This document shows, piece after piece, positions 13,730-47,745 of a stretch of DNA of 64,000 nucleotides (within the stretch, counting starts at the first letter, position 1; every line of letters begins with the position of its first letter). The stretch spans positions 18,600 through 82,599 of the forward strand of contig MHEE01000002.1 in NCBI GenBank assembly GCA_001805105.1, in the 5' to 3' direction. Both the position numbers and the translations under genes were made by a program. A model generated the notes under the pieces. That model saw only the letters and a program-made list of their open reading frames with translations. It was not told the origin of the DNA and searched no databases. The stretch is from Nitrospirae bacterium GWF2_44_13. GTDB lineage: Bacteria; Nitrospirota; Thermodesulfovibrionia; Thermodesulfovibrionales; UBA1546.

Positions 13730-13827
13730 GGGAGTGCATAGGGTTCTGGTGTCCCTCCCGGCCTTCAAAGCCGGTGTTTCCGGCCACAAACCGGAAGGGT
13801 GGGTTCGATTCCCACACGCTCCCGCCA
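13730..13827 (+). tRNA. selC: tRNA-Sec (anticodon TCA)
   Basis: A 98-nt tRNA including the encoded CCA. Bacterial tRNA-Sec features are all visible: acceptor stem GGGAGTGC/ACGCTCCC (seven pairs including a G-T; the eighth position is a C-A mismatch), discriminator G, 5-bp T stem GTGGG/CCCAC with TTCGATT loop, anticodon stem CCGGC/GCCGG with loop CTTCAAA giving TCA (13765-13767), and a long variable arm with TTCCGG/CCGGAA. It reads UGA as selenocysteine when SelB and a SECIS are present. selA, selB and selD are not in this window. A UGA-containing DsbC-like gene lies at 46948-47745. Confidence 0.96.
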
Positions 13828-46900: not shown

Positions 46901-46947
46901 TAAAAAACTTCAGAATTCATTTTATGCTACCACCGGCAGGGATAAGT

Positions 46948-47745
46948 ATGTTATGTTATATTGTAATGCGTAAATACATATTTTTTATTTTTATATTCGT
47001 TGCTGCATCTATGCTGAGTGTGCCGCTGTCGTACGGCAGCAGCGATGCTGACCATGACTGCACAAAATGTCATAAGCTGACCTTAGACGAAGCACAAAAT
47101 ATAGTTCAGGGAGGCATACCTGCTTCCAAGGTTCTTGAGATAAACCCCGGCCCTGTCAAAGGCGTATGGGAGATAGTTTTTGAAGTAAGAGGGCAGAAGG
47201 GGATAGTCTATGTAGGCCTTTCAAAAGAACTTCTCATCTCAGGCGACATATTTGACCTCAAGGCAAAGAGAAACCTCACAGGCGAAAGACTTTCCAATCT
47301 CAATAGGATAGATATATCAAAGATACCTCTTGACAGCGCTTTGGTAATGGGCGACAAAAATGCGCCAAAGAAAGCCATTGTCTTTACAGACCCCGATTGA
47401 CCATTCTGCGGAAAACTTCATCTGGAGATGAAGAAGGTTTTAGAGAAAAGAAAAGATATAGCCTTTTATCTGAAAATGTTTCCTCTGGTAAAGCTGCATC
47501 CGAAGGCCTACGAAAAATCAATGACAATAGTATGCAAAAAGTCATTAGAGCTTCTGGAAGACAACTTTGCCGGCAAAAAACTTCCTCCTCCTGAATGCAA
47601 AACCAAAGAGATAGACGAAAACCTAAAACTCGGAGAAAGACTCGGTATCACAGGCACTCCCGCAATTATATTCCCTGACGGAAGTATTGTCCCAGGAGCA
47701 ATGGCTGCCGACGCCTTAATCTCGCGGATTGACAGAAAACCTTAA
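46948..47745 (+). CDS. DsbC-like periplasmic disulfide isomerase, predicted selenoprotein (UxxC)
   Basis: One 265-residue reading frame interrupted by a single in-frame TGA at 47398-47400 (residue 151). Signal peptide (residues about 7-30), a CTKCH motif (about 37-41), a DsbC-type dimerisation domain (IVYVGLSKELLISGDIFDL), then VFTDPD-U-PFCGKLH. The TGA stands where DsbC/DsbG proteins have the first Cys of C-x-x-C. After it come MKKVLEKRKDIAFYLKMFP, and the cis-Pro GITGTPAIIFPDG. A hairpin follows at bSECIS distance and selC is in the window. Start 46948 is supported by AGGGAT; 46966 is the alternative. If TGA were a stop, the thioredoxin fold would be lost. Confidence 0.85.
47398..47441 (+). 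promoter_or_regulatory. Predicted bacterial SECIS element with Sec codon
   Basis: The UGA at 47398-47400 is followed by a 7-bp perfect stem CTTCATC/GATGAAG (47416-47422 and 47427-47433) closing a TGGA loop. AAAA (47412-47415) and TTTT (47438-47441) can extend it past a bulge. The loop begins 22 nt after UGA, inside the known range of about 16-37 nt, and has G in its first two bases. Confidence 0.7.

Follow-up and report, generated by a model that had tools for sequence, protein, structure and literature searches.

The window, a stretch of 64,000 nucleotides from the genome of Nitrospirae bacterium GWF2_44_13, carries a predicted selenocysteine (Sec)-containing DsbC-like protein gene and a gene for tRNA-Sec. 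The features discussed below are:

13730-13827, + strand: tRNA-Sec (selC), anticodon UCA (ARAGORN; Rfam RF01852, 66.6 bits)
46948-47745, + strand: predicted gene for the DsbC-like selenoprotein, 265 aa when the UGA is taken as Sec, stop codon TAA at 47743-47745
47059-47073, + strand: CxxCH motif (C38-T-K-C41-H42) just N-terminal to DsbC_N; C, C and H present in 76/88 homologues
47101-47280, + strand: DsbC_N dimerisation domain, residues 52-111 (PF10411, E 1.2e-8, 34.9 bits against a gathering cut-off of 25)
47356-47721, + strand: thioredoxin-like catalytic domain, residues 137-258 (PF13098, Thioredoxin_2, E 6e-19; conserved columns)
47398-47400, + strand: in-frame TGA, predicted Sec151 at the first position of the active-site CxxC (TGA/Cys alternation in homologues)
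47416-47433, + strand: SECIS-like hairpin, 7-bp stem CTTCATC/GATGAAG with loop TGGA, stem start 15 nt past the UGA

The start of the DsbC-like gene is uncertain, with ATG codons at 46924, 46948 or 46966. Translated with TGA as Sec, the frame 46948-47745 contains this one TGA only and is otherwise open. Translation also bears out the earlier note, which had read the TGA as replacing the first Cys of CxxC (VFTDPD-U-PFC, U151-P-F-C154) and had described a thioredoxin-like half beyond it with the cis-proline (P238) in GTPAIIF. Gene calling with table 11 splits the locus into two ORFs of 158 and 105 aa, as had been expected of gene callers. The N-terminus of the protein is hydrophobic and signal-peptide-like, and full-length homologues within the genus are 87-92% identical. 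Gene neighbourhoods of the homologues show no conserved partner and a mostly divergent 5' neighbour. Further TGA-joined ORF pairs in the window carry no obvious Sec-like motif.

Three sources supplied the homologues: the genomes of 61 relatives, 18 contigs from the GTDB genome collection, and a search across the phylum. The first set has TGA at the critical codon in 52 distinct loci and TGT or TGC in 43, with no third residue, and the second set adds 12 distinct TGA loci and 17 distinct Cys loci. The in-frame TGA is not a chance occurrence, because the same codon is TGA in 64 distinct homologues across both sets, against 60 with TGT or TGC and none with any other residue. Such strict alternation supports Sec at the first CxxC position. 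Homologues with Cys at residue 151, which the earlier note had thought worth seeking, are thus plentiful, and the reading frame of the homologues continues past the codon rather than stopping there. The window gene is confirmed as a real and well-supported predicted selenoprotein. One Sec copy (L103) has the motif U-P-F-S, with Ser in place of the resolving Cys. A single stop codon in a MAG and the two ORFs of standard gene calling might suggest that the TGA is an artefact of sequencing or assembly, or that the gene is a split pseudogene. This explanation is refuted by the same TGA in independent assemblies of many genera and by the conservation of frame and active-site residues on either side of it, which leaves it a negligible chance.

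The predicted Sec-for-Cys switch is spread over the whole order (Thermodesulfovibrionales-like Nitrospirota). Two TGA loci of the second set (L148, L149) belong to another family of the class. Matches in the contig scan of the GTDB collection all fall in Nitrospirota-type records, among them one labelled Nitrospinota, whose sequence is identical to that of G004, and one labelled only 'uncultured bacterium'. The earlier note had regarded a DsbC-type selenoprotein as an unusual case. The prediction of Sec in the DsbC type holds, but the gene is no isolated oddity: it belongs to a large family found across the order.

The hairpin downstream of the UGA is convincing by comparison of homologous sequences only, not from a single-sequence fold. 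Its stem halves lie at 47416-47422 and 47427-47433 and enclose the apical loop at 47423-47426. The earlier note was right about a 7-bp stem after the UGA but placed it 22 nt downstream, which is where the loop starts; the stem itself begins at 15 nt. Sec copies share the near-invariant consensus CTTCATC-NGGA-GATGAAG, with NGGA or NGGT and a G in the apical loop in all but one. All seven pairs form in 51/52 Sec loci of the first set versus 2/36 Cys loci, and three Sec loci (L036, L082, L083) show compensatory double changes from T-A to C-G. Sliding the partner by 1-3 columns as a control gave full stems in 0/52. The second set repeats the pattern, with 7/7 pairs in 12/12 Sec loci and a full stem in 0/17 Cys loci. 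Leu157 is encoded by CTT and Lys162 by AAG in 52/52 Sec copies each, and both codons vary in Cys copies, which points to a constraint at the RNA level. Folding of the single sequence, which had been proposed as a check, gave no significant stability (z -0.3 to -1.6).

The machinery for Sec insertion is encoded in the same genome. ARAGORN and Rfam both recover the tRNA-Sec that had been noticed in the window, and selA (L001, 626.6 bits), selB (L002, 385.8 bits) and selD (L008, G000:C17:20278-21204, 362.9 bits) were all found when looked for elsewhere in the genome. SelD has an in-frame TGA of its own (SCAGUAAKF) and is itself a predicted selenoprotein. Across the relatives selB scores above its cut-off in 59/61 genomes and, being near-universal in the order, does not discriminate between Sec and Cys copies. 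A point against the Sec reading is one genome (G045, 99% complete) that contains two Sec-DsbC copies and no match to selA or selB, perhaps owing to a gap in the assembly. Insertion of Trp or some other amino acid at the UGA, or a different genetic code in this lineage, would by itself be compatible with a lone in-frame TGA. However, homologues have only Cys or TGA at this codon and never Trp, table 11 gives good readings of the other genes in the window, and tRNA-Sec, selA, selB and selD coexist in the genome with a hairpin that tracks the TGA copies. We consider readthrough of this kind highly improbable.

Sec and Cys have been swapped repeatedly in this lineage. A quick tree with SH-aLRT as its only branch support requires at least 15 changes between Sec and Cys labels, six of them forced by well-supported branches, a count that gives no direction. 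Many genomes have Sec and Cys copies side by side, and the genome of the window itself has a Cys-containing DsbC paralogue (L066, G000:C1:2013-2789). Two Cys copies retain an intact hairpin, L042 (1578-2372 in G004), which comes from the same genus as the window and is 89% identical, and L021 (G024). Because their hairpins are intact and they are placed among Sec copies in the tree, they likely represent recent changes from Sec to Cys. In a further Cys copy (L022, G009) the hairpin is decaying. The hairpins of all three are probable fossil SECIS elements left after a recent Sec-to-Cys change, a feature that the earlier note had not noticed.

The assignment to the DsbC type relies on domains and fold. 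A DsbC_N dimerisation domain is the hallmark of DsbC/DsbG isomerases, and a Pfam scan finds it (PF10411) in 47/47 aligned members. The catalytic domain contains U151-P-F-C154, a second Cys pair (C196/C217) and P238, with both the Sec/CxxC site and P238 conserved across the alignment of homologues. DsbC is the top NCBIfam model for the window protein, yet at 76.6 bits against a curated cut-off of 215. A sequence search of the PDB with the window protein returns DsbC proteins as top matches. In an AlphaFold model built from 47 homologues (pLDDT 90.9), DsbC structures are also the first fold matches (E 1e-14). TM scores over the full length reach about 0.46/0.56 (rmsd near 7), modest values that may stem from the orientation of the domains; the catalytic-domain-only structures 3gv1 and 9dcg match at TMt 0.80-0.81. 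The DsbC-type architecture proposed earlier is thus upheld by DsbC_N with Thioredoxin_2, by the top NCBIfam model despite its score and by the fold matches. Since the equivalog cut-off of NCBIfam DsbC is missed, we label the predicted protein DsbC-like instead of treating it as orthologous to E. coli DsbC.

We consider it very likely that the gene product is an exported thiol:disulfide isomerase or reductase of the DsbC type, with Sec as the N-terminal nucleophile of CxxC and with UGA decoded via the hairpin. DsbC attacks substrate disulfides with the first Cys of its CxxC, which is kept reduced via DsbD/CcdA. Judging by the sequence, its conservation and the Sec machinery in the genome, SelB and Sec-tRNA(Sec) would recognise the hairpin past the UGA at 47398 and insert Sec. 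The mature protein would consist of the DsbC_N dimerisation domain and the thioredoxin-like domain. By analogy with DsbC chemistry, the selenolate would attack wrong disulfides of exported proteins, and resolution of the selenenylsulfide would fall to Cys154. Electrons probably come from the single DsbD_TM (CcdA-like) protein that the genome was found to encode.

How far such a protein would work as an isomerase is a separate matter. Neither DsbB nor VKOR was found in the genome of the window, and only one DSBA-like match exists besides the two DsbC paralogues, so there is no clear sign of the classical oxidising route through DsbA and DsbB that would call for an isomerase. The protein may serve chiefly as a reductase. 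A selenoprotein that is mostly a periplasmic disulfide reductase, acting for example on the CxxCH of apocytochrome c or in defence against stress, would fit the apparent lack of DsbB and VKOR and the cytochrome c assembly proteins that accompany the CcdA-like protein in the genome. Against this stands the dimerisation domain in every member scanned. We regard this alternative, which concerns function only, as possible if somewhat doubtful, and retain the DsbC-type isomerase or reductase as the preferred reading.

The CxxCH motif, which the earlier note did not remark on, is kept in Sec and Cys homologues alike and is present too in the phylum-level homologues checked. Because C38, C41 and H42 are kept together or mostly lost together, the conservation points to a single functional entity, perhaps for binding haem c or a metal. 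In the homologue alignment, residues 28-150 hold no His or Met that is invariant and could act as the distal, second axial ligand, the domain scan gave no cytochrome family match among members, and the passages of PMC7084401 consulted describe no haem-bearing CXXCH DsbC. A DsbC-like selenoprotein with covalent haem c on the N-terminal CxxCH, linking the selenothiol site to one-electron transport in bacteria apparently lacking DsbB and VKOR, would be a rather improbable arrangement.

Having Sec at the active site of a disulfide isomerase should shift the redox potential and the rate at which exported proteins are proof-read. Natural Sec and Cys versions that are 89% identical within one genus, together with apparent fossil SECIS elements, provide ready pairs for studying the benefit of Sec and its loss. 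Because ordinary gene calling splits such genes, counts of selenoproteins in this order are probably too low.

Lists of prokaryotic selenoproteins name a 'Thiol:disulfide interchange protein' (PF13098, UxxC) and a 'DsbG-like' family and have no entry for DsbC (PMC9312934, PMC13188914). The predicted Sec-DsbC family is thus unnamed in the lists consulted. Among the titles and abstract openings listed, which cover few subscription papers and hence are no proof, none is on a Sec-containing DsbC. The first of the listed families has been placed in Geobacter and Syntrophus (PMC1794560). PF13098 is the best Pfam match of the window protein too, and WP_011366075.1, a 'Thiol:disulfide interchange protein', shares UxxC in this Thioredoxin_2 domain. 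The domain cd02953, which we take to be the DsbD gamma group, presumably lacks DsbC_N. It is to cd02953 that an ocean survey maps the name (PMC2398784), which speaks against identity, although the families are set apart by names in papers only. We judge it unlikely that the two are the same family, a question of novelty only. A Prx-like selenoprotein has been described as fused to a domain called DsbC (PF11412; PMC9402790), a Pfam model that differs from that of the window protein. The 'DsbG-like' selenoprotein (PF13462 / NF041057) is also a UxxC thiol oxidoreductase, and PF13462 is matched here too; NF041057 is matched by 0/47 members at E 0.001, and the window family differs in its full DsbC_N architecture. 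The DsbA-like selenoprotein (PF01323, UxxC) likewise has a periplasmic thioredoxin fold with UxxC, but is an oxidase family without the dimerisation domain. E. coli DsbC and its relatives (PDB 1eej, 4npb, 4i5q) likewise combine DsbC_N with a thioredoxin-like domain and share CxxC, TcisPro, the second Cys pair and a signal-peptide-like N-terminus; the best structures are 23-26% identical to the window protein. Compared with DsbC, the window protein has predicted Sec for the first active-site Cys of CxxC and a CxxCH ahead of the N-terminal domain.
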